Positions 15,060 through 30,847 of a stretch of DNA of 33,435 nucleotides are shown here, one piece after another (position 1 is the first letter of the stretch; each line of letters begins with the position of its first letter). Source of the DNA: Clostridiales bacterium (lineage in GTDB: Bacteria; Bacillota; Clostridia; Christensenellales; CAG-314). The translations under genes were made by a program, and so were the position numbers. Under the pieces are notes generated by a model. That model worked only from the letters and a program-made list of their open reading frames with translations, did not search any database and was not told the DNA's origin. The stretch is taken from positions 1 to 33,435 of the forward strand of contig JAFLVL010000009.1 of NCBI GenBank assembly GCA_022508325.1, given 5' to 3'.

Positions 15060-16672
15060 GAAAAAATTACGTATGGCCCGTCTAACGGAGTAATAAAACC
15101 GTTTTCAACCAGGACATTCCAATATGACAACTTACACAGAATTACTCGGGAAACCAATAATAGGTTGAGTATCTCGAAAATTTATAGCTACTATTCCGAC
15201 GGACGCTTGAAAAAAATAAGCGGCATAGGGAAGAATAGTGGTACTAAAAACTTCATTTATGATGCAAATGGCAGACTGATTTCGATTAACAGTTCCACCA
15301 CTTATGCTTACGACCATTTCGAAAACCGCATTTCCAAAACAGCAAACGGAGTAACTACTCGCTATACATTCGATATCGGTGGCAGATTGGTAGAAGCAAA
15401 CGGCGCAAAGTACAGCTATAATGCCGACGGAATCAGATACAAAAAGACGCTTGCCAACGGTGAAACTGTAAAAATGTATCTTGACGGCGGTAAGTTACTG
15501 GGCGAAGATAGAAGCGACTGCAAATTGCGCTATTTCTACGACGCAATGGGACTGAAAAGAATACGGAGAATCGAAGGCGACGGTGTGATTGACTACGAAT
15601 GAGTAAAAGACAATCAAGGTAGCATTATTATGCTTACGTCTGCTCATAGCGGTGTCGTATTTGCTCGCCATGAATATGATGCGCTTGGCAATTGCACTAT
15701 TCTTGAAAATATAGACGGCGTTGCAGAAAAGAATCCCTTCCGCTGGAAAGGTTTCTACTTCGACTCTGAAACAGGATTCTATTACGCAAACGGAAGCTAC
15801 TACGATCCTGAAACTGCTTTATACGTTGATGCCGCTCAAGTATCTACTGTAATAGACAATGCACTTTCTCCAAGGCACATTGACAGAAACGGCATGTTGT
15901 GCTACAATCCTCTTGCTCTTGCAGGCAGTCCATTTACCGCATTCCCAACAATGGAAATGGAAGCAGACGAAACGTATGATCCAGGGCAGACTTGGTGGGA
16001 TAATCTGTGGGAGAAATCATGTAACTGGTGGCAAAATATTCCTAAATGGATAAAATTTGGAATCGGCTTAGCAGTAATAGTAGGACTAGCTATTGCTACC
16101 ATAGCAACAGGTGGCGCATCAGGTGTCTTGTGGGGCGCAGTTTGTGCCGGCGCATTGAAAGGTGCTTTGATTGGAGCGACGTCTGGAGCTATTGTTTCCG
16201 GTACGATTGAAGGTTTAGTCTCCCTGAGCAATCATCAAAGATTTTGGGATGGTTTTGCTAACGGCGCAGCAGACAGATTTATGTTTGGTGCGATAACAGG
16301 AGCAATAACAGGTGCGATAGAAGGTGCAAATGGATGGTATAATGCGAAGGCAAGTTATCCTCCAAATAATGGAGCGGTTCCTGGCACCGAGCAAGAAATT
16401 GTATTGCAACCTGGAAAATATTCACGTTATGGAACAATAGGACCCAAAAGCGATTATATAACGGCTGCAGGGGCAAGTCCAAGCCAACTTTCATTGCCGC
16501 CATGGAATGATATAGGGGGTTAATAGAAATAACCGTACTTAAACCCATACCGAATGTTACTCAGTAAGTTGTTGCCCCATGGGTGCCGTGGCACGGTATA
16601 GGAGGGGGCATACAATATTTGTTGCCAGATCCGATTATAGTCTTGAGAGATTTAGGTTACTTAATATTTTAG
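15060..16672 (+). pseudogene. 5'-truncated RHS/YD-repeat protein with TNT-like C-terminal toxin domain
   Basis: YD repeats (FQYDNLHRITRETNN, FIYDANGRLISINS, TRYTFDIGGRLVE), RHS core NPFRWKGFYFDSETGFYYANGSYYDPETALYVDA. In-frame TGA at 15600-15602. Frameshift near 16513 and in-frame TAA inside the C-terminal segment ...VLKPIPNVTQ*VVAPWVPWHGIGGGIQYLLPDPIIVLRDLGYLIF*. Confidence 0.85.
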
Positions 16673-18139: not shown

Positions 18140-18382
18140 ATGGTAAGACCTATAGACAATTATATAGAAGTAGAAACGCAAGGAAGCTTCTCCTTGTGGA
18201 TTAACAAGCCCGTATATAAAATTTACGAAACAAGCGGTGGATATATCAGAAACGTGAGAACAGGAGAAAACGTGGGACAGCACGTTGAGTTGCACATGAA
18301 TCTTTATGATGAGAATCATGTTAAGCTTGAAGTCGCAAGCTACGAAGAAGATTGCTATGAACTTGTGGAGGAATGGGTATGA
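18140..18382 (+). CDS. Hypothetical small protein in phage-like cluster
   Basis: 80-aa ORF (MVRPIDNYIEVETQGSFSLW...) with AAGGAG Shine-Dalgarno. Confidence 0.5.
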   Translation: MVRPIDNYIEVETQGSFSLWINKPVYKIYETSGGYIRNVRTGENVGQHVELHMNLYDENHVKLEVASYEEDCYELVEEWV

Positions 18383-19078
18383 CGGACAATTTATCAACGA
18401 TTTGAAGGCATCGCCGTATTTTAACCGTATCTTGAACGGGCACGACGTAATAATGATATCTTTAACAAGTTCGAGACTTATTGGTATTACTGATGAACGA
18501 AGCGACTATGATTTGATAGTAATAACAAATGACGCAGAAAGAGAAGAGTATGTTTCAGAATTTTTGACCTATTATTCCAATAAAGTTCATTGGCACTACA
18601 TTCCGATAATGAATTTGATTGCAAATGAAAATGGAAATTTGCTCAGTTGCAGTGGCGAAGTTGAATTCGTTGGCTTGAGCGAACAGAAAATCATATATGT
18701 AAATCCTAAATATCTAAAAGTAATAAACTATTTGATAGAAAAAAAGGATGTTGTTGCTAAAGTAGGCGTATACGGTTTAGTAAGTTTTCATGCTCGTTTC
18801 ATATCTAGAATATTGAGGGCTAACGAAATTAAAACGGAAGATTATTGCAAGTTTATTTACCATTTGTGTTTTGCTTCGTATATCATTTTGTCCGAAACGC
18901 CCGACAAGAATTTTTTGTCGGAGATAAAAGAATAAGATGGAGAACGGTGTCAGACGAATACAAAAGCTTGGCTGTAGAACGAATACGGCTATTGTATAAT
19001 TTTGTTACCGAGCATCCTCTTGACATTAGTAACATTATTTGCGAATTTAACAAGAGTGTCAGTTTGATGCTTGCTTGA
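18306..19078 (+). pseudogene. Nucleotidyltransferase-like protein, frameshifted
   Basis: SLTSSRLIGITDERSDYDLIVIT resembles the Pol-beta nucleotidyltransferase motif; ORF ends at 18935 but plausible continuation RIRWRTVSDEYKSLAVERIRLLYNFV... lies in another frame to 19078. True 5' end uncertain. Confidence 0.45.
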
Positions 19079-19145: not shown

Positions 19146-19166
19146 ATTTGATTGACGGCGTTGCAA
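19146..19166 (+). repeat. Imperfect direct repeat, right copy
   Basis: ATTTGATTGACGgCGTTGCAA; 20/21 identical to 15032-15052. Confidence 0.7.
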
Positions 19167-19212
19167 CAAGAAACGGTTCTGCCTATTATATGGCGAACCG
19201 TTTCTTGTTGCA
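19162..19212 (-). terminator. Long inverted repeat / terminator-like hairpin overlapping CDS 3' end
   Basis: 18-bp perfect arms TGCAACAAGAAACGGTTC (19162-19179)/GAACCGTTTCTTGTTGCA (19195-19212). Confidence 0.6.
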
Positions 19213-21222
19213 TATAAAATTGTCTGTTGCGTAAAGCTCTACGTCTTGCTCGAGTCTCAGTTCGGGGTCGGGCGTGTCTTCAATGGAGTCTAGCCAGCTG
19301 AGAGTGCCGAATTGGTAAGTAATCGAGTAGTACTTCGTCACGTCGTTGCCGTTTGCGTCCAATACCGTCGCAGTCACCGTGTTGGGCGCGGTGTCTTGGT
19401 CAGGTTGTAACGTTCCGGTAACTTTAAACTGCGCTGAATGCCCATTAAGCAGCGATCCAACCGAAATCCAAGCCAAATTGCTGCTTAGTGGCGTGCCGTT
19501 TCGCGCTTGCGCAACAGATATGCTTGTAACAGTCAAAGGACGGCGATTGACTGTCAACGGACTGCCTACAAATTCCACTGCGTTGGGGTCGTCTTGGTCA
19601 GCGAGTAAATCTCTGCCGTTGTTGTCCACTACCGTGACCTTACTCTGACTGCGCGCGGTAGCAAGAGACAGAACACCCGGTTCCGTGAGACTGCCGACGA
19701 GCGTCACTCTGACCCACGACGCGTCTACGCCGACAGGAACACTTTCCACGAACCAATCGGTAGCTTGATAGCTTAGTGGCGTGCCGTCGTAGAACTTGCT
19801 GAGCGCGTATACGCGAACTTTTATCGTAGGTTTGACGCGAATTTTGCCCCACTGTCCGCGCGGCAAGTAGTTTGCCGAGACGTCTCTGCCGTTGCCGTCC
19901 ACCACTGTGTAGGTCTGAACATTGTCAGCGTAGCCCACTTGATTTGATTTGTCTGTGACGTTTGTCACCCCTGCCGAAGCTGCCGCCGTCACTCTGTGTC
20001 CGTCCAATAACCCTTCGTTCAATCCGCTTGATGTCAAGACCTCGTATTGCAGATATTTGTGCCCAGTGCCGTCGTGAACGAATGTTTTGTCGCCTGTGCG
20101 CACGTCGAAAACGCGTTTAGTTACGGTCAATTTGCCGCAGATGTAGCTTAACGTGTAATTTGCGGTGACGTCTGTGCCGTGTTCGTCCGTAACCGCGAAG
20201 CTTTGCGGCTTATTGTCAACGCTACCTACGTCAACTATTGCCGTCCAAGCGCCAAAGGTAACGTTATGCCCATTTACTAGGTTGTCAAACGTGTGTCCCT
20301 CGGTGTGGCTGTGTGGCTGACCGTCGTATACCCAGCTGTCGCCAATGCTTGTGACGGTGATTTCGCGTTCAACGACTGTAAGCTCGCCCAAATCGAAACT
20401 TGCATGGTAGTGAACAGTAACGTCGTTGCTGTCCTCGTCGAAAATTCTATAACTTGTAACCTCGTTTTTTGCGCTGCCGACATCGGTAATAGATATAGTC
20501 ACCACATCTCTTAGGGTATGCCCATCCAGCAAGCCCTTTGCCGTAGCAGCATTTAACGCGTGAGGTTGTCCGTCATAGACCCAACTGTCGCCGTACGTGG
20601 TTATTTTGATTGAAATAGGATTACAAATTAACGTTTTAGCTTGTACCGTCACGTTGTAGTTGGCGGTAACGTCATTGCCATCGTTGTCAATTATCCTGAC
20701 GTCACCTTTGACAGGCGCAACATCTACCGTGTCCTGCGAATAGGCAAACTCAAACCCGCCGAAAATCAGTTTGTCGCCGTATTTAAGGTTGTCTGCGGCA
20801 ACATCTTGGGGAATGCTTCCGAAATCCAGCTCAAAATCGACCACTTTTAGCGTTAAATCTGCAGGAATAATGGCAAAAGTATGTATCTCGCCGTATCTTT
20901 CTTCACCTGAAAGCGTAAAAGACACAGCTTGCGCCTCGTAATTGCCTACGAATAGCGGTTCTTCATACGACCAAGCCCCGCCTACCGCTCTGTACCGAAA
21001 AGCGACGTTGCCGTAAAATGCTTTTGCCGAGATATTGGGTTTGTCGCCGTAGATTACGGTATCTTCACATTCTGAAAAGGTGACAGTTCCAACGAAATAC
21101 AGCAATACCGATGCGATAATAAGCAGTACGACTACTGCCAATATCAGATATCGCCATTTCCAAACGGCAAGAATACGCGCGTTGCGGCGGGCAAGCTTTT
21201 CTTGATACTCCTGATATAGCAT
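19186..21222 (-). CDS. Signal-anchored surface protein with MBG/Ig-like repeats
   Basis: N-terminal basic segment + TM (YLILAVVVLLIIASVLLYFVG); recurrent 'DSWVYDGQPH...' and 'GNDVTANYxxxxxxGxLTV' units (about 6). Confidence 0.85.
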   Translation of the reverse strand: MLYQEYQEKLARRNARILAVWKWRYLILAVVVLLIIASVLLYFVGTVTFSECEDTVIYGDKPNISAKAFYGNVAFRYRAVGGAWSYEEPLFVGNYEAQAVSFTLSGEERYGEIHTFAIIPADLTLKVVDFELDFGSIPQDVAADNLKYGDKLIFGGFEFAYSQDTVDVAPVKGDVRIIDNDGNDVTANYNVTVQAKTLICNPISIKITTYGDSWVYDGQPHALNAATAKGLLDGHTLRDVVTISITDVGSAKNEVTSYRIFDEDSNDVTVHYHASFDLGELTVVEREITVTSIGDSWVYDGQPHSHTEGHTFDNLVNGHNVTFGAWTAIVDVGSVDNKPQSFAVTDEHGTDVTANYTLSYICGKLTVTKRVFDVRTGDKTFVHDGTGHKYLQYEVLTSSGLNEGLLDGHRVTAAASAGVTNVTDKSNQVGYADNVQTYTVVDGNGRDVSANYLPRGQWGKIRVKPTIKVRVYALSKFYDGTPLSYQATDWFVESVPVGVDASWVRVTLVGSLTEPGVLSLATARSQSKVTVVDNNGRDLLADQDDPNAVEFVGSPLTVNRRPLTVTSISVAQARNGTPLSSNLAWISVGSLLNGHSAQFKVTGTLQPDQDTAPNTVTATVLDANGNDVTKYYSITYQFGTLSWLDSIEDTPDPELRLEQDVELYATDNFICNKKRFAI

Positions 21223-21232
21223 CTTGCCCCTC

Positions 21233-22375
21233 CTACCTCAGCGTCAACGTGCCGAACACGAATGCGATAGAATAGTTTGCCGTAACGTCAACACCGTTGC
21301 GCATTATGCGCACTGTAGCCACATTTGCGCACGTGCCTCGCTCCGTCAATTGCGCTGTAAATTCTATTTTTATCTCGTCGCCCTGTAGCAATCCAATTTG
21401 CGTGTACTCGTGACACACGAGTGCGCTGCCGTTATAGACGGCTGTCAGCGAACCGGTCGTAATGGTCAGCTGCCTTTGCGTCATCGTCAGTGTGCCATAC
21501 TCCAACGTGATTTGGTAGCCATGAGTGATATCATTGCCGTCGCTGTCTAATATCTTCACCATGAAAGTATTGGCAATACTTCCAACCGTCTCGAGCGTTG
21601 CGAAAGAATAAACTTGGATTTTGTGTCCTTCAGGAAGAGAACCGTATAGAACATCGTAGCCCATATCGTAAAGAGGAGCACCGTCGTATTCTTTTGACGC
21701 GCTGGCGCTACGTACCGTCAGCTGTTGCATATCACACGCCGAACACCTGCCCGATTGGTCAAAAACGTGCTCGCCGGTAGGCTTTAACTCTCGCGTTTCA
21801 CGAACTAAGTGGCATTGTACACACGTACGATACTCCCATCCCGATCTGCCACAGGTGGGGTCTGCCGTACGCTGCCACTCGTCTTCATAGACGTGCTCGC
21901 CTGTTGCCGGTATTGTGCTCATCACGACGAATTTGCACTTGTCGCACCGGCGCAAGGCTACGCCAGGCGACATGCACGTGGCAGCTATATAAGTTTCCCA
22001 ATCGCCAAATCTATGCGTGCAAGTCACCGAACCCCAGTCGAAATCGTCGGGGAGGTCGTCCCAGGGTATGTCTTCCCAAGGATAGTTATCGGGTAATTCT
22101 TCCCAAGGGACGTCTTCCCATGGGACCTTTTCCCACGGCATATCATCGGGTAGTTGATCCCAAGGTACTTCGTCGTAGGGGAAATCATCGGGAAAGTCCT
22201 GCCAGGGAATCTTGTCCCAAGGCACATCGTTTGGCAAATCAAAGCGCGGTTTTTCGGGAGACTCGCCTTTGGCTTGCACAAGACTGTATGTAAGCGCGCA
22301 CATTAGCAAAAGTACAAATACTACCAACGCGCCTAATATGTAGACAAATTTAGATTTTCTCATACCTCGCCTCAA
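21233..22375 (-). CDS. Signal-anchored surface protein: Pro-Trp-acidic repeat stalk, Cys/His modules, MBG-like domains
   Basis: TM near N-terminus; PWxxΦ repeats; two CTHRFGDWETYIAATC.../CxxC...IPATGEH modules; two YDG...GxDVTANY...GTLTL units. Confidence 0.85.
   Translation of the reverse strand: MRRGMRKSKFVYILGALVVFVLLLMCALTYSLVQAKGESPEKPRFDLPNDVPWDKIPWQDFPDDFPYDEVPWDQLPDDMPWEKVPWEDVPWEELPDNYPWEDIPWDDLPDDFDWGSVTCTHRFGDWETYIAATCMSPGVALRRCDKCKFVVMSTIPATGEHVYEDEWQRTADPTCGRSGWEYRTCVQCHLVRETRELKPTGEHVFDQSGRCSACDMQQLTVRSASASKEYDGAPLYDMGYDVLYGSLPEGHKIQVYSFATLETVGSIANTFMVKILDSDGNDITHGYQITLEYGTLTMTQRQLTITTGSLTAVYNGSALVCHEYTQIGLLQGDEIKIEFTAQLTERGTCANVATVRIMRNGVDVTANYSIAFVFGTLTLR
22034..22237 (-). 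repeat. Protein-coding Pro-Trp-acidic repeat tract
   Basis: LPNDVPWDKIPWQDFPDDFPYDEVPWDQLPDDMPWEKVPWEDVPWEELPDNYPWEDIPWDDLPDDFDW. Confidence 0.9.
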
Positions 22376-23763
22376 TCCGACGTTATACTGTCAAGATAGC
22401 GTCTGCATTGCGAATCTTCGCCGAAGGTGTTGACGATAAAGCTCTTGAGCTGATCTATTTCGCCACGCAATCTCGACAGATCTCTGTATTCCAATTTGCG
22501 GAGAACTTTCTTGGCAAGAATGTCGTCAATGGCCTCCAATTCGCTGCCGCCGCAAGCGACATACACCGCTACGTAGTCTCCTATCTGACGGCGAATACGG
22601 TTGCCGTAGGTCATTTGAAACTTGTCCGTCAAGAACGCATCGAATGCCGTAATATCTGCCTGAAATTGCGCACCGGGACGGTAGTCCTTGATAGCCTGAG
22701 CTACCATTTCTTGAAATTTGGTGTAGCTGAGCGCGACGGTCGCCGACTCTTCTACCTCAAACGGTTGCGCTTTGCCGCCCAAATCTACAATCATTGCACG
22801 ATCATATACCTTGTCTGAGATGGGGTACGCCGAGTCGTCATCGTTGACTGTGCCTACAAACCACATGCTTTCGGGCAGCTTGAGGCAACCGTTGACAATG
22901 CCTTCGGGGTCGTTTGCCCACGCGTCGGATGCCGCTTCAAGATACCGTAGTTCGGGATTGGGCAGCTCCATAAGTGACAAAAACTCCGCAAAGTAATACT
23001 CAATCCGCGCGATATTCATTTCGTCTAACACGGTGATATACATGCGGTCGCCGAAATTCGCCTCGTATATCTTTCTGAACAGCGTCGTTTCGTTGAAATG
23101 TTTGGTAAATTCGTTGTAGTAGCCGAGCAGGTCAGCACGCTCCTTCCACATGGGTTGCACGGGTATAATAGTCGAGGAATTGTTAACAAATTCGCCGAAT
23201 GCGTAAGCCAGCGACGTTTTGCCCGAACCCGAGACGCCTGTGAGTATAAGCATGTGCGACGCGCCCAAAGATGCGACAAACTTGCGTACATCCTGCTCGG
23301 AAAAATACAGCTTGAGCTTATCTGCGGCAAAATTGCGAAAATCGGCACATAATTGACTGAGACTGCTTACTTCCTTGCCTTCTGCCACCGTTTTTCCCTG
23401 TGTCAAAGGGCTGAAACGGCTGGGAAGAGTCTGATTTTGATGGGCGACAAAGTCGGCTCTTTCCGCATCTATTGCCTGTTTCAAACCGTCCTCTAACGTC
23501 CAGGTAACTTTGTTTATCTTGCGTCCCCTGGCAACGGTAAATATCAGGAACACAATCAAAAGGATAGGCAGAGCAAATCCCCAAAATACTATCAGGGCGC
23601 TATTGTAGCTGTAGGTAATGTAGATAAAAAACGTTTCAAGATAGGGAACGAGTGTGCCCGCGATGCCATAATATATGAGCGTGATAATTCCTGTTCCACC
23701 AAGCAGCAGAACGAGAGCAAGCAACACTATCAAAAACCATGTATGATTTCGTCTTTTCTTCAT
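22372..23763 (-). CDS. Membrane-anchored McrB-type AAA+ ATPase (copy B)
   Basis: Two N-terminal TM helices; Walker A GVSGSGKTS; PVQPMWKERADLLGYYNEFTKHF; Walker B VLDEMNIARIEYYFAEFLSLME; sensor GTVNDDDSAYPISDKVYDRA. Confidence 0.88.
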   Translation of the reverse strand: MKKRRNHTWFLIVLLALVLLLGGTGIITLIYYGIAGTLVPYLETFFIYITYSYNSALIVFWGFALPILLIVFLIFTVARGRKINKVTWTLEDGLKQAIDAERADFVAHQNQTLPSRFSPLTQGKTVAEGKEVSSLSQLCADFRNFAADKLKLYFSEQDVRKFVASLGASHMLILTGVSGSGKTSLAYAFGEFVNNSSTIIPVQPMWKERADLLGYYNEFTKHFNETTLFRKIYEANFGDRMYITVLDEMNIARIEYYFAEFLSLMELPNPELRYLEAASDAWANDPEGIVNGCLKLPESMWFVGTVNDDDSAYPISDKVYDRAMIVDLGGKAQPFEVEESATVALSYTKFQEMVAQAIKDYRPGAQFQADITAFDAFLTDKFQMTYGNRIRRQIGDYVAVYVACGGSELEAIDDILAKKVLRKLEYRDLSRLRGEIDQLKSFIVNTFGEDSQCRRYLDSITSD

Positions 23764-25199
23764 TGTTTGTCACCGTTATCTTTGGATTTTCCAAAAATCT
23801 GTTTTTTGAGGTCGTCGCGCGCTTGATTGCGTATATTTGCTTTGGCACTTTTCCACTTCTTTTTGACAATTCTGCCCAGCGCGTTGTACAGACCTTCCAA
23901 TTCGTCAAATTCCTTCTTTGTCGGCGTCTTTTTGTCGGTAGCCAAAACGGCAAGCTGTGCCTTCAATAGCAAATTCTCCTCTTGCAATTTGTTTTGCACC
24001 GTTTCAAATTCCGTAATTGTGTTTTGGAGCAAAATTTTACTTTGCGCAAGCCTGTCGGAATATCCGCTGATTGCCTCGGCGCATTTTTGCAAAATCGATT
24101 GCTTTTCTGCAAGGACAGACTGTAATTGCTCTTGTGTTTGCTCCGTCTGTTGGATTTGAACGCTCAGCGTCTGTTTTAATTGCTCTATTTGTGGCTCGGC
24201 GGCGTCCAAAAGCTCGCTTCTTTGCTGTAAGACAAGCAGATAGGCGCCATCACCCTCTGCAAAACGCCTTTTGAGCTGTTCGAGCTGTTCGCGACGTTCT
24301 TTTTCGCACTCACTCGCCAATCCGTCGGATAGCTCCAGCGCGTTGACGTAGTCGGAAAAGGAGAGCAGTAGGCACAACGCCTCAACATCCTCCGACACCT
24401 CCAGCGTCTGCGTGGAATATTCTACGCTGTAACCGTCTCCCTCGTAAGAAAGCAGGTAGTCGTATAAAGCAACCGCTAACTTGAAGTTTTTGTCCATCTT
24501 GAGCACGTTATTCTTGGTGATTACGGTTTGCACCATATCCACCTTAGACAGCTCGACCATGAGGGGAGTGGACAGATAAAAGTCTACAGTACGCAAAATA
24601 TTCGCCAAACGCTCTGCCGCGTCGCAAAGGGAGAGCAAATAGTCGTCGTTTTGCCGCTCGTCCAGTAAATCAATGGCAATATTCAGCTTGCGAACGCCAA
24701 AATCCAGCTGCAAATTGGCGTCCAGCTTGCCAGAAAAGCTACTCGTAGCCTTTGCAATAGGCTCGTACCTCGCGGACACGAAGCTCTTGACCGTAGTAAG
24801 CAAACGGTACAAAAACCTATTTTCGTAGGTGGCGTAGTCATTGAGTCGCTCCACCGTGTACAGCTTGTCGGGTACGATATTGTCATCGAAGTTGGTCTCG
24901 CGTGAGATAAACTCGCCGTGGCGGGCAAGATGCTGAATCGACTCCTTGGAAATGCGCTTGACCTTCTCTATGGGTTGCACCTCTCCTTCGGAACGTATAA
25001 ACCGACGTTCTTCATCGATGGCTTTCCCGACGAAGTCAAGTCCCCGCTCTATTGCTACAATCCACTTGTCATCAACGGTGCATTTGGCGTAACTGACATT
25101 GAGAGTCGCAGAGCCTTCTTTTGTAAGCTCCCTGTAGCCGTCGCCCACTGCCTGACGGAGTGACTGTAAAATTTTGTAAAGATTAGTTTGCTCGGACAT
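23760..25199 (-). CDS. DUF2357/McrC N-terminal-like protein with long C-terminal coiled coil, no evident nuclease domain
   Basis: LYTVERLNDYATYENRFLYRLLTTVKSFV resembles the ENRF motif of DUF2357/McrC-like proteins; Gln/Glu-rich coiled coil; basic C-terminus. Start re-assigned to ATG 25199 (MSEQTN...). Confidence 0.65.
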   Translation of the reverse strand: MSEQTNLYKILQSLRQAVGDGYRELTKEGSATLNVSYAKCTVDDKWIVAIERGLDFVGKAIDEERRFIRSEGEVQPIEKVKRISKESIQHLARHGEFISRETNFDDNIVPDKLYTVERLNDYATYENRFLYRLLTTVKSFVSARYEPIAKATSSFSGKLDANLQLDFGVRKLNIAIDLLDERQNDDYLLSLCDAAERLANILRTVDFYLSTPLMVELSKVDMVQTVITKNNVLKMDKNFKLAVALYDYLLSYEGDGYSVEYSTQTLEVSEDVEALCLLLSFSDYVNALELSDGLASECEKERREQLEQLKRRFAEGDGAYLLVLQQRSELLDAAEPQIEQLKQTLSVQIQQTEQTQEQLQSVLAEKQSILQKCAEAISGYSDRLAQSKILLQNTITEFETVQNKLQEENLLLKAQLAVLATDKKTPTKKEFDELEGLYNALGRIVKKKWKSAKANIRNQARDDLKKQIFGKSKDNGDKQ

Positions 25200-25207
25200 A
25201 GTTACTC

Positions 25208-26491
25208 CTAACTGTTGCGAGCAAGGGCGCGAATGTAGTTGACGCAATGCGTCATCGTACCTTTGCCAAAGCAGTCCTCAATAAACTGTATCAGCTCGTC
25301 GGCATCCTTCTTGCGATAGGCAATATTTTGCATTTCCAGCTTGCGAAGTACCTTTTTGGTGAGAATGTCATCTAACGCCTTCTCTTCATTGCCGCCGCAC
25401 GCCACATATACGGGCAGGTAGCTCTTTATTTGCTTCATCACGCGGTTGCCGAAGGATATGCGAAAATGCTTTTGCAGGTATTCATCAAGTTTGTTGAGTC
25501 TGTCGGAAGAAGCTTTTGAAATGGAATTTATCTTGAGTACCTCTGCCACTTTGTCGTTGAAAGCCTGCGCAGAGATGGGCATTGTGCCAAATTTTGCCGC
25601 TTCAAAAGGTTCTGCTTTGTGGTCTAACTGAATTATCATCGTGCGGTCGTAGACCTTGTCGGAGATGGCAAACGTGCTGTCGTCGTTATTTGCCGTGCCC
25701 AAAAACCACATATTTTCCGGCAATTTGATACTGCCGTTTTTGAGGTCCTTGGGGTCGGAGCTCCATTTGTCGGTGATAATGTCAAGATACCGCAACTCGG
25801 GGTTGGGAATCTCCATTAGCGAAAGAAATTCCGCAAAGTAGTACTCTACGCGCGCAATGTTTAGCTCGTCCAAAATGGTGACAAACATCGCTTGACTTTT
25901 ATTTGCCTCATACATTTTCGATAGCAAAGGCGTCTCGTTGAAACGCTTGGTGAATTCGTTGTAGTAGCCGAGTAGGTCGGATCTTTCCTTCCACATAGGC
26001 TGTACCGGAATAACGGTAGAGGGATTATTCAGAAATTCGCCAAAGGCAAACGCCAACGAAGTTTTGCCGGTACCCGACATGCCCTGCAAAATAATGAAAT
26101 GGGACACAGCCAGACCGCTCACAAAAGCGCGAATAGTATCGCGGTCGTAGTATAATCCAAGCTTTCCCGCGGCGTAGTTGCGGAACTCCTCGCACAGTTC
26201 GCTTAGCGTAAAATTGTCTACAAATTGTTCTTTTGGCGCCTTATTCCAACGCTCGTCGATGGACTTCAACATCTCAAAACGCGAGCTTGAGACCTCAGCT
26301 TGTTCGCTTGCTTTGTTCGCGCTCGATTTGAGTTGCTTGTTGACGCTGTTGAGTCTGCGTTCGTTTATTATAGCGGCAATGACGATCAACCCCATCAATA
26401 CCACCATGACAGCCATGTACATAATGACGAATTCCGGGGTTTTGATAAAATTCCATATTTGAGCCAAGGTTATGCTGAATAAATTTCTCAT
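25208..26491 (-). CDS. Membrane-anchored McrB-type AAA+ ATPase (copy A)
   Basis: One N-terminal TM helix; Walker A GMSGTGKTS; PVQPMWKERSDLLGYYNEFTKRF; Walker B ILDELNIARVEYYFAEFLSLME; sensor GTANNDDSTFAISDKVYDRT. Strongly similar to 22372-23763. Confidence 0.88.
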   Translation of the reverse strand: MRNLFSITLAQIWNFIKTPEFVIMYMAVMVVLMGLIVIAAIINERRLNSVNKQLKSSANKASEQAEVSSSRFEMLKSIDERWNKAPKEQFVDNFTLSELCEEFRNYAAGKLGLYYDRDTIRAFVSGLAVSHFIILQGMSGTGKTSLAFAFGEFLNNPSTVIPVQPMWKERSDLLGYYNEFTKRFNETPLLSKMYEANKSQAMFVTILDELNIARVEYYFAEFLSLMEIPNPELRYLDIITDKWSSDPKDLKNGSIKLPENMWFLGTANNDDSTFAISDKVYDRTMIIQLDHKAEPFEAAKFGTMPISAQAFNDKVAEVLKINSISKASSDRLNKLDEYLQKHFRISFGNRVMKQIKSYLPVYVACGGNEEKALDDILTKKVLRKLEMQNIAYRKKDADELIQFIEDCFGKGTMTHCVNYIRALARNS

Positions 26492-26519
26492 AAGTTCTCT
26501 CTAAAAAAGGCTTTTTTCG

Positions 26520-27320
26520 TTAATCTAATATAGGGTTGTTTGTGCGGCGCAACCCACGCGAAAACATAAGCGCCGTAACACTCGCCATGGGCAGTATCAC
26601 AAACACGCCCGAGCCTGCAAATATCATTACTCGCTCTATGTCGTCAGCGGTACAGTTTGCAAGCAACACGTAGCCCGCAATCAACAGGCAAAACAGCGTT
26701 GCAGACGTCGCTAGCAATATTGCGCGACGACGCCTCCACACCGATTTGCGACGCACCACACAGATCACTGCCACGGCGACTATCTCCGCCGCCACACCTG
26801 CAAGCAACAGGCGTTTAACGGTGAAAAGAGACGCCAATTTGAGCAGAATGTAGTCCATAATAAGTGTCAGAATGACGGCGGCAACCGCCATTGCCAACAC
26901 AAGCAAGGCTATCTGCGTGGCGAAAAACCAATCCATGTTCTTTGCCTTTGGTCGCAAGTCGCTTGAGGATGCCCTACTGTCGCTCCGTTTAGGTGCAAAC
27001 TTGAGTATCAATACGCCCACAACAAAAACCACCGCGGCAACTCCTACCGCAACGTATATCGACCACAAAATAGGCGCGCCTTGCAAATTTAAATATGCGA
27101 ACTCCGCCTCGCTTTGCGTAACGTAGGTTGCAATAACCCAGCACAGCGTAGAAACGTCCAACGCTACCACCGCCGAAAAAACCGTCAAATAGGATAATTT
27201 GGCACGCCGATTGCCCTCCTGCGCAGCATTCATAAGTTTGCTGAAAACACAGGGCGCAACAAAGGAAAAGAATATATTAAAAACTATTCCTATGATTAGC
27301 CAAAGTATCCAATAAAACAT
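26520..27320 (-). CDS. Polytopic membrane protein, unknown function
   Basis: 266 aa with about 6-7 hydrophobic helices; first gene of the AAA+ operon. Confidence 0.75.
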   Translation of the reverse strand: MFYWILWLIIGIVFNIFFSFVAPCVFSKLMNAAQEGNRRAKLSYLTVFSAVVALDVSTLCWVIATYVTQSEAEFAYLNLQGAPILWSIYVAVGVAAVVFVVGVLILKFAPKRSDSRASSSDLRPKAKNMDWFFATQIALLVLAMAVAAVILTLIMDYILLKLASLFTVKRLLLAGVAAEIVAVAVICVVRRKSVWRRRRAILLATSATLFCLLIAGYVLLANCTADDIERVMIFAGSGVFVILPMASVTALMFSRGLRRTNNPILD

Positions 27321-27353: not shown

Positions 27354-27382
27354 ATTTTAATTATTAATTCGCCCTCTGTCAA
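27354..27382 (-). promoter_or_regulatory. Probable sigma-A promoter of the AAA+ operon
   Basis: Minus strand TTGACA (27377-27382), 17-nt spacer, TAAAAT (27354-27359). Confidence 0.6.
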
Positions 27383-27527: not shown

Positions 27528-28733
27528 CTACTTTTTCGTTGTTTTCTTGGCGGTAGAGGATTTTTTCGCGGTTTTGCGCGACTGTTGCGTTTTGGTTGTC
27601 GATTGCGGTTTAGTAGCCGATTGCGATTTGGTTGCAGGCTCGGGTTTATTGTCTGACTTGGTTGCAGTAGCTTTACTTGGCGCGGTTTTAGCAGGTTCGG
27701 TTTTCGCAGGCGTGTCCGTTTTTGCCTTTTTGCTCTTTTGTTTAGAGCCTTTTTCCAACTTATTCAGCTTGTCGAGGTCGTAGTCGACCTTGGTTATCAG
27801 CGTTCTGCCTTTGGGAGATGAAATGATACCCTTCTGCATCATAGACTTGCCTTTAAGCTCCACTATCGCCCTCTCGAAACGAATGGTTACGCCCTCTTCG
27901 AGGTCGGCAACACCCCTGCTGAACATTTTCTTAAACACGGTATAGATTGTCGGTCGGTTCGTCAGCATCTCGAATTCGATATACTGAACGTAGTAATGCA
28001 TTCTTGCCAAACGCTCGAGCGAGACGTCTCCGTCGGCGAAATAGTTGTCTATGTCCGCGCACAGTTTCGTGCAATCACGCATACATTCTTTGCACTTGCC
28101 GCACGCCTTGATAATGGGACTGACGACAGGATAGAAGGTAATGAGCAGAGTCAGATATTCGATGGTTTCGCTTTTGAAAAATACCGCCACTACAAAGCCC
28201 ACGGCAACCATAATCAGGAAGAACAGATATATGTAGAAAATTCTGCTAAGCAAAAATTTGGTGGTCGCTGCCGAGCGACGGCAGAGATACAAGTAAGCGT
28301 ATTCGTCGGGGATTTCCTCGGGCACGTTGACGTCGTAATAAGCGTCCTTGCCGCGCATTTGCGGCAAACCCTTGCGAATGGCAAGCTCGTTCACCTCGTT
28401 GGTGGTCTCGCGGTCGTACTCTATCTTGGAAAACTCCGTACCTGCAATGCCTGTCTCGTACAGCTGGTACTCCATTACCGCCTTTTTCTTGTATTCGTTG
28501 AGAAATGACGTCAGCGATTCGTTGAGCAACGACAAGCCGAAGGAAATAATCGAGCAAATAAAGACGTATTGGTTGGAAACAGCGGGAATGAAAGACAAAA
28601 CGATGGGAACAAGCGCAATAACGTACAGCAACACGCGAGATGCCTTGAGGTCGAAAAACATCTTTTGTGAGGCGTAATAAAATTTGGCAAATTCCTCTTT
28701 CCGCGATCTTTCCTTAACTCTGTTTTTAGTCAT
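27528..28733 (-). CDS. Four-TM membrane protein, possibly S-4TM-like, with Lys/Pro/Thr-rich C-terminal tail
   Basis: Two pairs of TM helices separated by a cytoplasmic segment (…LCRRSAATTKFLLSRIFY); YYVQYIEFEMLTNRPTIYTVFKKMF; tail KTDTPAKTEPAKTAPSKATATKSD...KKTTKK. Confidence 0.6.
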   Translation of the reverse strand: MTKNRVKERSRKEEFAKFYYASQKMFFDLKASRVLLYVIALVPIVLSFIPAVSNQYVFICSIISFGLSLLNESLTSFLNEYKKKAVMEYQLYETGIAGTEFSKIEYDRETTNEVNELAIRKGLPQMRGKDAYYDVNVPEEIPDEYAYLYLCRRSAATTKFLLSRIFYIYLFFLIMVAVGFVVAVFFKSETIEYLTLLITFYPVVSPIIKACGKCKECMRDCTKLCADIDNYFADGDVSLERLARMHYYVQYIEFEMLTNRPTIYTVFKKMFSRGVADLEEGVTIRFERAIVELKGKSMMQKGIISSPKGRTLITKVDYDLDKLNKLEKGSKQKSKKAKTDTPAKTEPAKTAPSKATATKSDNKPEPATKSQSATKPQSTTKTQQSRKTAKKSSTAKKTTKK

Positions 28734-28910: not shown

Positions 28911-29861
28911 ATGTTCAAAAAGGCGAAAAAGTTAATTGAAAAGTACGATACGATAATTATTCACAGACACACCAACCCCGACGGAGACGCGCTGGGCAGT
29001 CAAATAGGTCTGCGCGAAATCATACGCGAGAACTACCCCGACAAGACCGTCTATATCGTCGGAGACGGCACCAAACGCTACGCTTTCATGGAAGGTTGGC
29101 AGCCCGACGAAATTCCCGACGAGTTTTATCAAGGCGCATTGGCGATTATACTGGACACATCTGCTAAACACCTGATTAGCGACACTCGCTACCCGCAAGC
29201 CGCCGAAACGCTACGCTTCGACCACCACCTGTTCGTTGAGAAAATTTGCGACGTCGAGGTTGTAGACAGCACCTTTGAAAGCTGTTGCGGACTGCTTACG
29301 CAATTTGCCATAGACTGCAAACTGAAATTCAACACCCTTGCCGCAAAATCGCTCTTTACAGGCATGGTGACGGACAGTGGACGCTTCCGCTACGACTCGG
29401 CAAACCCACGCACGTTCAGACTTGCGGCGACGCTGACCGAGCAGGGATTTGACACAAACGAGATTTACTGCGAGCTGTACGCCGACGACCTGTCAATGCT
29501 TCAACTGCGTTCGCAGTACGTATTGAAAATTCAACTTGCCGGCGACGGCGTGGCATTTATCGTCACGACTAACGACGAACTGCACCGCCTAGAAAAGGAA
29601 TACGGCGTGGACTCATTCGGTATTTCCCGCGGAATGGTAGGCACTATGGCGGACATTCGCGGCATAGACAGTTGGGTGAACTTTACGCAGACTGACGATT
29701 GCGTACTCTGCGAATTACGTTCCAAAAAGCACAACATTAACCCCATCGCCGTAAAATACGGCGGCGGCGGACACGCCAAAGCAAGCGGCGCGGCTATACC
29801 CGACCTTGACACAGCAATGAAGATGGTTGCGGACCTAAAGGCTTTACATAGAGGTGAATAA
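28911..29861 (+). CDS. DHH/DHHA1 phosphoesterase (NrnA-like), copy 1
   Basis: IIHRHTNPDGDALGSQIGL; FDHHLF; FTGMVTDSGRFRYDS; YGGGGHAKASGA. Confidence 0.92.
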   Translation: MFKKAKKLIEKYDTIIIHRHTNPDGDALGSQIGLREIIRENYPDKTVYIVGDGTKRYAFMEGWQPDEIPDEFYQGALAIILDTSAKHLISDTRYPQAAETLRFDHHLFVEKICDVEVVDSTFESCCGLLTQFAIDCKLKFNTLAAKSLFTGMVTDSGRFRYDSANPRTFRLAATLTEQGFDTNEIYCELYADDLSMLQLRSQYVLKIQLAGDGVAFIVTTNDELHRLEKEYGVDSFGISRGMVGTMADIRGIDSWVNFTQTDDCVLCELRSKKHNINPIAVKYGGGGHAKASGAAIPDLDTAMKMVADLKALHRGE

Positions 29862-30847
29862 TGACACAACAAAGAAAAGCAATGAAACAAATTTTGGATA
29901 AAATCAAAGCCTACGATACGATAATCGTATCGCGCCACGTACGCCCCGACGGCGACGCAATAGGCTCGTCGCGCGGACTGGCTGCAATGCTGCGTCTGTC
30001 TTTCCCCGAGAAGAAAATCTACGTACAATCGGAAGATTCAAGCGACTATCTTGCCTTCCTCGGTCCTGACGACGCGCCCGTGCCCGACAGCGTATATTCC
30101 GAAGCGCTACTAATAGTCACCGATACGGCAACGCTGGAGCGCATATCTAATACTCGCTACGCGCTTGCCAAAGAAATCGTAAAAATCGACCACCATATAA
30201 ACCGTGACCCTTACGGCTCGGTATACTGGGTAGAGGATTTGCGCTCCTCTGCCTGCGAAATGATAGCGTATTTCTACAAAACCTTCAAAAAAGAGCTGAA
30301 GCTTGACAAGGAGGCGGCTACTTATATCTTCACAGGCATGGTGACGGACAGCGGACGCTTCCGTTACGAGGCGACGACAGGCGACACTCTGCGCCTTGCG
30401 GGCATGCTACTCGACTTCGGCATTGACATTGACACGCTATATGCCCATCTCTATCTCGAGGAGTACGACCAACTCAAATTCCAAGCTTACGTTCTGCAAA
30501 ACATGCAAATTACGCCTAACGGTTTGGTTCATCTGCACGTCGACAAGGCAATGCAGGAGCAATTCCACCTCACCAGCGAACAGGCAAGCGAGGCTATCTC
30601 CTATCTCAAATATATTAAAGGTTGTATCTCACAGTTGGCTTTCATTGACATGCCCGACGGCACCATTCGCGTACGACTGCGCAGCCGTTTTATGGAGATA
30701 AACGAGCTTGCGGAGAAATACAACGGCGGCGGACACCAATTCACATGCGGAGCAACGCTCTACGACCCCGCCGACATCGAGAAAATGCTCAACGACGGCG
30801 ACGCAATGGTTGGCGAATTCAAAAGAACACACAAAGGTTGGTTATGA
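29861..30847 (+). CDS. DHH/DHHA1 phosphoesterase (NrnA-like), copy 2
   Basis: IVSRHVRPDGDAIGSSRGL; IDHHIN; FTGMVTDSGRFRYEA; YNGGGHQFTCGA; overlaps copy 1 stop. Confidence 0.92.
   Translation: MTQQRKAMKQILDKIKAYDTIIVSRHVRPDGDAIGSSRGLAAMLRLSFPEKKIYVQSEDSSDYLAFLGPDDAPVPDSVYSEALLIVTDTATLERISNTRYALAKEIVKIDHHINRDPYGSVYWVEDLRSSACEMIAYFYKTFKKELKLDKEAATYIFTGMVTDSGRFRYEATTGDTLRLAGMLLDFGIDIDTLYAHLYLEEYDQLKFQAYVLQNMQITPNGLVHLHVDKAMQEQFHLTSEQASEAISYLKYIKGCISQLAFIDMPDGTIRVRLRSRFMEINELAEKYNGGGHQFTCGATLYDPADIEKMLNDGDAMVGEFKRTHKGWL

Follow-up and report, generated by a model that had tools for sequence, protein, structure and literature searches.

In the McrBC restriction system, one finger of McrC plugs the McrB hexamer and stimulates its hydrolysis; the assembly has been proposed to work in a rotary cycle (PMC7680126). 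An McrB-family protein can also be coopted for another task, as PcdA of Staphylococcus aureus has been for cell division (PMC10602043). Bell et al. 2024 (PMC11090510) described CoCoNuT systems, of which the nuclease-less ones always have a separate nuclease nearby, and named a further branch, CoCoPALM, which was left for later work and in which an NxD McrB fused to an FtsB-like transmembrane (TM)/coiled-coil segment occurs with a coiled-coil McrC and signal peptidase family proteins. Here we describe an operon related to this branch at positions 19186-27320 (minus strand) of a 33,435-nucleotide stretch of contig JAFLVL010000009.1 (hereafter the window), which comes from an uncultured gut Clostridium whose draft genome (GCA_022508325.1) measures 1.31 Mb and is 77% complete. 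In this operon and its relatives in gut Clostridia, the genes of a McrBC-type motor known from DNA restriction form an operon of membrane components together with surface proteins dedicated to it, and we see about an even chance that it is a restriction-type motor rebuilt into a membrane-tethered one that assembles, moves or remodels those proteins. For comparison, 75 loci (L numbers below; genomes have G numbers) were collected by scanning genome contigs with an alignment of the two motors A and B, giving a set that is biased to the A/B type and whose carriers are almost all metagenome-assembled genomes (MAGs).

Two McrB-family motors and a DUF2357 partner

The six minus-strand genes form one operon, transcribed in the order t, A, C, B, M1, M2 (27320 to 19186), and all six open reading frames are open at their listed coordinates, as a first-pass annotation made from the letters alone had claimed. 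Profiles, alignment and a tree assign to AAA_A (A; 25208-26491, minus strand, 427 amino acids (aa)) one N-terminal TM segment, a short charged linker and an McrB-family AAA+ motor, in which Walker A (GMSGTGKT, 26060-26083, minus strand, from sequence and alignment), Walker B and the N-N-D-D motif are all intact. By profiles and alignment, AAA_B (B; 22372-23763, minus strand, 463 aa) joins a TM hairpin of two segments to an McrB-family AAA+ motor that also has intact motifs, its Walker A reading GVSGSGKT (23215-23238, minus strand). Both proteins match AAA_5 above the cut-off, and McrB was the sole family matched in the PDB by a profile built from the two; by these profiles the motors belong to the McrB family, and the membrane-anchored McrB-type pair of the first-pass annotation is borne out. 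The NxD signature motif reads GTANNDDS and GTVNDDDS in the window's two motors, and N.DDS is present in 78/78 A and 65/67 B copies (some genomes being counted twice), with Walker motifs intact in all A copies and nearly all B copies; an ungapped alignment with Escherichia coli McrB (EcMcrB) also permits an NxxD reading. In the McrB finger region, one of two neighbouring arginines is kept in A, in B and in the related single-motor proteins described below (VYDRTM/A vs ALRRRF in EcMcrB). No DNA-binding specificity domain was found on A or B, whose N-termini consist of a predicted TM anchor and a short linker. The membrane anchors of all operon proteins are predictions, as TM segments were called from hydropathy only and orientation and topology were deduced.

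Between the motors lies C (23760-25199, minus strand), to which Pfam, an AlphaFold model and the starts of homologues assign a DUF2357 (McrC N-terminal-like) domain and a coiled-coil helix of ~100 residues, with no nuclease domain. The match to DUF2357 scored 28.6 bits against a Pfam cut-off of 23.3, and the domain was also matched by 17/27 C homologues; PD-(D/E)XK families, including PDDEXK_7, gave no match among the 27, in agreement with the nuclease-less DUF2357-like partner read from the letters. In the AlphaFold model (mean pLDDT 81), a mixed alpha/beta domain extends to about residue 290 and is followed by helices of ~100 and 40 residues, with no nuclease fold, and neither the profile searches nor the model revealed a nuclease hidden within C. 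Among the operon genes and window neighbours there was no HEPN, PLD or other nuclease near C, and a genome-wide nuclease search was also empty, though its controls stayed silent. The C profile did not match the single E. coli McrC sequence, and a Foldseek search of the C model against the PDB returned nothing significant, a result that speaks neither for nor against McrC homology.

Sequence exchange between the two motors

A and B of the same locus are most alike in the AAA core (median identity 70%), less so in the lid (48%) and least in the N-terminal anchor part (27%). Fifteen loci have 98-100% protein identity and 94-100% DNA identity over the whole motor, a stretch of ~1.1 kb (the 346-codon motor part) that starts 200-290 nt ahead of Walker A and ends at the stop codon or no more than 18 nt from it, and the N-terminal anchors of the same loci are only 32-57% alike. 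These near-identical motor parts with differing anchors are the new observation made here. Synonymous divergence between A and B is low (dS <= 0.062) in 14 of the 15 loci; L078 has a dS of 0.36 with a dN of 0.005 and four non-synonymous changes, and motors of different loci or neighbouring species have a dS of ~0.7 or more. In the tree, A and B of one locus neighbour each other in several lineages, and G018, from the window's genus, carries a single recombinant motor that resembles A in its front half and B in its rear half, C being gone. As intra-locus pairing, near-identity and a recombinant motor are found together, A and B are, on the evidence of their sequences, repeatedly exchanging sequence by gene conversion. 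A recombinant motor of this build, with C lost, is located at L054 10001-11266 (= L137).

An assembly artefact is an unlikely source of the A/B identity, given the synonymous differences in L078, L080, L087 and L092 and the near-identical motors in an isolate, Anaerocaecibacter muris (L092); short-read collapse may apply to fully identical pairs. In the window's own lineage, the A/B core has diverged to 61%. The simplest functional reading would be that the motor parts of A and B are both required to fit into one ring or onto one partner, and near-identical motors on unlike anchors hint at a mixed ring.

Surface proteins of the operon

M2 (19186-21222, minus strand) is, by its homologues and an AlphaFold model, a type-II membrane protein with a conserved cytoplasmic tail and a tandem beta-domain (MBG-like) ectodomain. 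The 25-residue tail (MLYQEYQEKLARRNARILAVWKWRY; 21148-21222, minus strand) was aligned across 52 relatives, and the pattern M-x-Y-x-x-Y-x-x-[KR]-[LIM] recurs in nearly all M2 proteins, with Y3 and Y6 in 48/52 rows and K/R9 in 51/52. M1 (21233-22363, minus strand) has, according to profiles and homologues, an N-terminal signal anchor (SKFVYILG motif), a P/W-rich repeat stalk, CxxC segments and MBG/YDG-like domains. The label of MBG-repeat surface proteins given at first pass stands in part: the AlphaFold model of M2 has one N-terminal helix followed by tandem beta domains, and the surface proteins are dedicated to the system as set out below, but the MBG/YDG matches are weak (best 2e-4) and fall below the cut-off. 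Foldseek related M2 to generic beta-sandwich rods (S-layer, cadherin and adhesin domains) at low TM-scores and found no specific structural relative. M2 ectodomains vary from ~400 to 2300 aa, many being cut by contig ends, and the window M2 is ~34 residues longer at its C-terminus than the L016/L017 proteins, which stop at FGTL[SR]W[LI].

The M2 N-terminus (tail, TM segment and first domain) had strong matches in 31/396 genomes of the order, including all 20 genomes with a complete A/B pair (Fisher p ~4e-26, uncorrected for relatedness and therefore overstating independence). In most of the other 11 M2-positive genomes, the motors are matched only partially or weakly, in some cases at the end of a contig, as is expected if near-identical repeats break assemblies. 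No match was found in those of the 396 genomes that have only the single-motor type. Among 398 phylum-wide genomes, the M2 N-terminus was found only in the window's own genome (0/397 others), and motors elsewhere in the phylum are remote matches of <155 bits. M2 is thus dedicated to the A/B system. The M1 slot is exchangeable among relatives, with P/W stalk, MBG, Gly-rich or transglutaminase ectodomains. At L073 14810-21266 and L083 14647-21116, the slot is occupied by a membrane-anchored protein of 2150 aa that shares the N-terminal motif, and Pfam identified transglutaminase domains in the L083 protein.

Conservation and the eight-gene form

The order A (1 TM)-C (DUF2357/coiled coil)-B (2 TM) is kept in 60/75 loci, the remaining loci mostly stopping at a contig edge, and one or two type-II surface proteins (M1/M2) lie behind A-C-B in almost every contig that is long enough. 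The annotation profiles were built from members of the same locus set, which makes them sound for gene order and not independent for family membership. The co-occurrence check proposed with the first-pass annotation is answered by this order, which rules out a chance cluster or an annotation artefact. In ~34 loci the operon has eight genes: X1, X2, X3, A, C, B, M1 and M2. X1 and X2 are membrane proteins, X2 sometimes reaching 1000-2000 aa, with BspA-type leucine-rich repeats in one that was tested. X3 has GH3 C-terminal and Fn3 modules, a TM segment and an AAA-like part, which lacks both Walker A and Walker B in 56/56 copies; examples lie upstream of A at L018 3952-7758 and L048 6297-9986, with no signal peptide evident.

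In the window and its near relatives, X1-X3 are replaced by t (26520-27320, minus strand), a polytopic membrane protein of 266 aa whose C-terminal half resembles the X3 membrane segment in a profile comparison (E 4.7e-7, to be given moderate weight as a match of membrane segments). On this comparison, t is probably a shortened relic of X3, the GH3/TM/dead-AAA protein that holds this place in most relatives. The six-gene layout is therefore real in the window but is a shortened form, as most relatives have three further upstream genes. In L071, L074, L075 and L077, X1 is preceded by a ~500-aa polytopic gene with a CvpA-like N-terminus, a possible ninth operon member in that lineage. The closest public relatives of the window genome are rabbit-gut MAGs, and named carriers include Candidatus Gallimonas, Candidatus Borkfalkia and Anaerocaecibacter.

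The exchangeable ectodomain slots (MBG, P/W stalk, transglutaminase and the BspA-type repeats of X2), as well as the combination of a GH3/Fn3 module with a motif-less AAA part in X3, are features that would suit a transmembrane sensor or signalling system, in which glycans, mucin or neighbouring cells would be the ligands of the ectodomains, whose state the AAA+ assembly would read or reset. We consider this unlikely, as the operon contains no output module (kinase, cyclase or transcription factor) and two intact NTPases suggest work rather than signalling.

Proposed action on surface proteins

If the operon does encode a membrane-tethered motor for surface proteins, A and B would be two versions of one McrB-family motor, held at the inner membrane face by different anchors and forming a mixed ring. 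The DUF2357 domain of C would plug and stimulate this ring, as McrC does with McrB, the coiled coil replacing the nuclease. NTP hydrolysis would then shift C relative to the ring, and the motion of C would act on M2 (and M1) at their short conserved cytoplasmic tails, so that the rod-like surface proteins are assembled, oriented or cycled. As C would plug the pore in the manner of McrC, the ring is unlikely to thread a protein; the more natural output would be for C, with its coiled coil, to move against a membrane-fixed ring, and the M2 tail, which is predicted to lie just beneath the membrane, is the obvious candidate for receiving this motion. The surface parts found beside related single-motor loci (SipW-type signal peptidase, TasA-like proteins) were counted in favour of the surface as the probable site of action, and the cooption of PcdA is a precedent for such a shift of task. 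The first-pass annotation had suggested surface remodelling, conflict or sensing as roles. Going further, the operon may represent a separate kind of envelope motor, with gene-converted twin motors on two anchors, a mixed ring and a DUF2357 coiled-coil shaft that drives dedicated rods via their tails, possibly by rotation as proposed for McrBC; this extended form is put forward only tentatively.

Several observations weigh against a surface-acting motor of this design. In four loci (L054, L074, L075 and L077), C and B are missing beside one motor and M1/M2; C would then be dispensable in some cases, unless these loci are broken or misassembled. The model of C has no structural match to McrC, which leaves its presumed fit in the ring resting on a modest profile match, and adjacent paralogues can be homogenised by gene conversion even if they form no mixed ring. 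In addition, the operon has a patchy distribution (4 pairs among 25 genomes of the genus) and its site varies, both of which are often true of defence genes. The operon-less genome G007 has the NrnA pair, SurE and S_4TM genes that flank the operon in the window, the likewise operon-less G023 has an AraC gene and the NrnA pair with integrase-like and other genes in between, and in G024 the operon and the SurE locus are on different contigs. The operon is an accessory unit at variable sites, which is compatible with surface variation and with defence.

This distribution, the integrase-like gene at the site in one relative and the McrBC ancestry would all fit an anti-phage or anti-plasmid system, in which the membrane-tethered McrB/DUF2357 unit would work at the envelope, sensing or attacking incoming nucleic acid or phage, with the surface proteins as receptors, decoys or effectors. 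In the same direction, the PADLOC defence-candidate profile PDC-M26A matches the window motors (E 3.5e-42 and 6.9e-46, over the part of the profile around the motor only) and all of the A/B and related motors checked (17/17), but it is a candidate label without a described or tested function. We regard a defence role as doubtful. There is no nuclease or recognisable toxic effector in the operon or in the 27 C homologues, and the separate nuclease that Bell et al. lead one to expect for nuclease-less CoCoNuTs is not seen here. Housekeeping and transport functions predominate among the 104 genes around other loci, with defence-profile matches as scattered singles and no recurrent defence partner, and the operon was accordingly not taken as part of a defence island. 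Carriage on plasmids or phages was also rejected, as only remote McrB relatives are found there.

Gene junctions, signals and flanking genes

The 4-nt overlaps or gaps under 30 nt described at first pass were found at three junctions, with a gap of 28 nt at t/A, an overlap of 4 nt at C/B (23760-23763) and a gap of 10 nt at M1/M2. The overlaps after A and after B are probably 8-nt gaps instead, since C probably starts at ATG 25199 (MSEQTNLYKI..) rather than at the listed TTG 25247, and M1 probably at ATG 22363 (MRKSKFVYILG..), later than listed, as judged from homologues. Upstream of the operon, the promoter proposed at 27354-27382 (minus strand) is a sigma-70-like match, TTGACA-17-TAAAAT, that fits 11/12 positions and is the best in the region, but the number of promoter-like sites there (8 vs 9.5 +/- 3.2 in shuffles) is not above chance. 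The proposed hairpin at 19162-19212 (minus strand) lies across the M2 stop codon and is confirmed by its folding energy (-37.6 kcal/mol, z = -8.1); this near-perfect 21-bp structure, found once in the genome, has no T-run and is a candidate transcript end.

Beyond the promoter, 27528-28733 (minus strand) encodes a protein that has a K/T/A-rich tail and belongs to the S_4TM (SMODS-associating 4TM effector) family. It was rejected as a member of the system, being a flank gene that stands beside the NrnA pair in G007 (L142) without the operon and with no CBASS gene in view. Two adjacent NrnA-like DHH/DHHA1 genes, paralogues ~33% alike, follow at 28911-30847 (plus strand) and precede SurE; the pair and SurE occur together in G007, G023 and G024. 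On the other side, Rhs-repeat protein fragments (15165-16523, plus strand) lie in a variable stretch between an AraC regulator and the operon, and 18306-18935 (plus strand) has a very weak nucleotidyltransferase (Polbeta) match (E 0.05).

Comparison with known systems

Many genomes of the window's order contain single-motor loci, in which a motor and C accompany a SipW/archaeal-type signal peptidase (NCBIfam) and TasA-like proteins, the latter recognised solely by an N-terminal T-[TY]-[FY]-A-W-F signature; a signal peptidase and/or TasA-like gene is present in 15/20 sampled loci. Neither gene was found in the window operon or in A/B loci, and no papers on McrB with TasA, or on PDC-M26, were found. 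In a tree of 89 rows, A and B form one clade (96/99) beside the single-motor rows, and, as the branch of E. coli McrB is very long, this clade could be sister to those rows or nested in them. An ordinary CoCoPALM with replaced cargo, doing the job of the SipW/TasA-linked type with other fibre proteins, would explain the motor family, N-x-D-D motif, TM anchor and coiled-coil DUF2357 partner that the two types have in common. We hold this to be improbable, as the A/B clade is separate, the A/B operons are without signal peptidase and TasA-like genes, and both types are present in some genomes (for example G276, G339 and G375). As the signal-peptidase feature was tested and is absent, the window operon is a relative or variant of CoCoPALM and not a CoCoPALM member. 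The claim of an undescribed system has to be narrowed to the same extent: the motor branch already has a name, and CoCoPALM-like loci occur in the same order and even the same genomes, but the surface set and the second motor differ. For the unstudied CoCoPALM branch, the operon is a clearly delimited relative that lends itself to tests; the pairing of near-identical motors with unlike anchors, a natural constraint of an unusual kind, is directly testable, and the carrier isolate Anaerocaecibacter muris opens a role of McrB motors at the envelope to experiment.

With CoCoPALM, the operon shares an McrB-family motor with an NxD-type motif and a TM anchor, an McrC-like coiled-coil partner and adjoining surface or export genes; it differs in having two motors on different anchors that form their own clade, in lacking a signal peptidase, in its surface proteins (MBG, P/W stalk or transglutaminase) and, for most relatives, in three additional genes upstream. 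McrBC, the Type IV restriction system of E. coli K-12, likewise has an McrB-family AAA+ motor and a DUF2357 partner gene in one operon, whereas the window type is predicted to be membrane-anchored, lacks the DNA-binding domain and the PD-(D/E)XK nuclease, and keeps one finger arginine. The NxD McrB branch, coiled coils and nuclease-less McrC variants are shared with CoCoNuT, but the window operon has no HEPN or other nuclease neighbour and no RNA-binding domains. Finally, PcdA resembles the operon in its McrB family, its envelope-related task and its lack of a restriction nuclease, and differs in its N-terminal EVE-type domains, its degraded Walker A and its lack of a DUF2357 partner.

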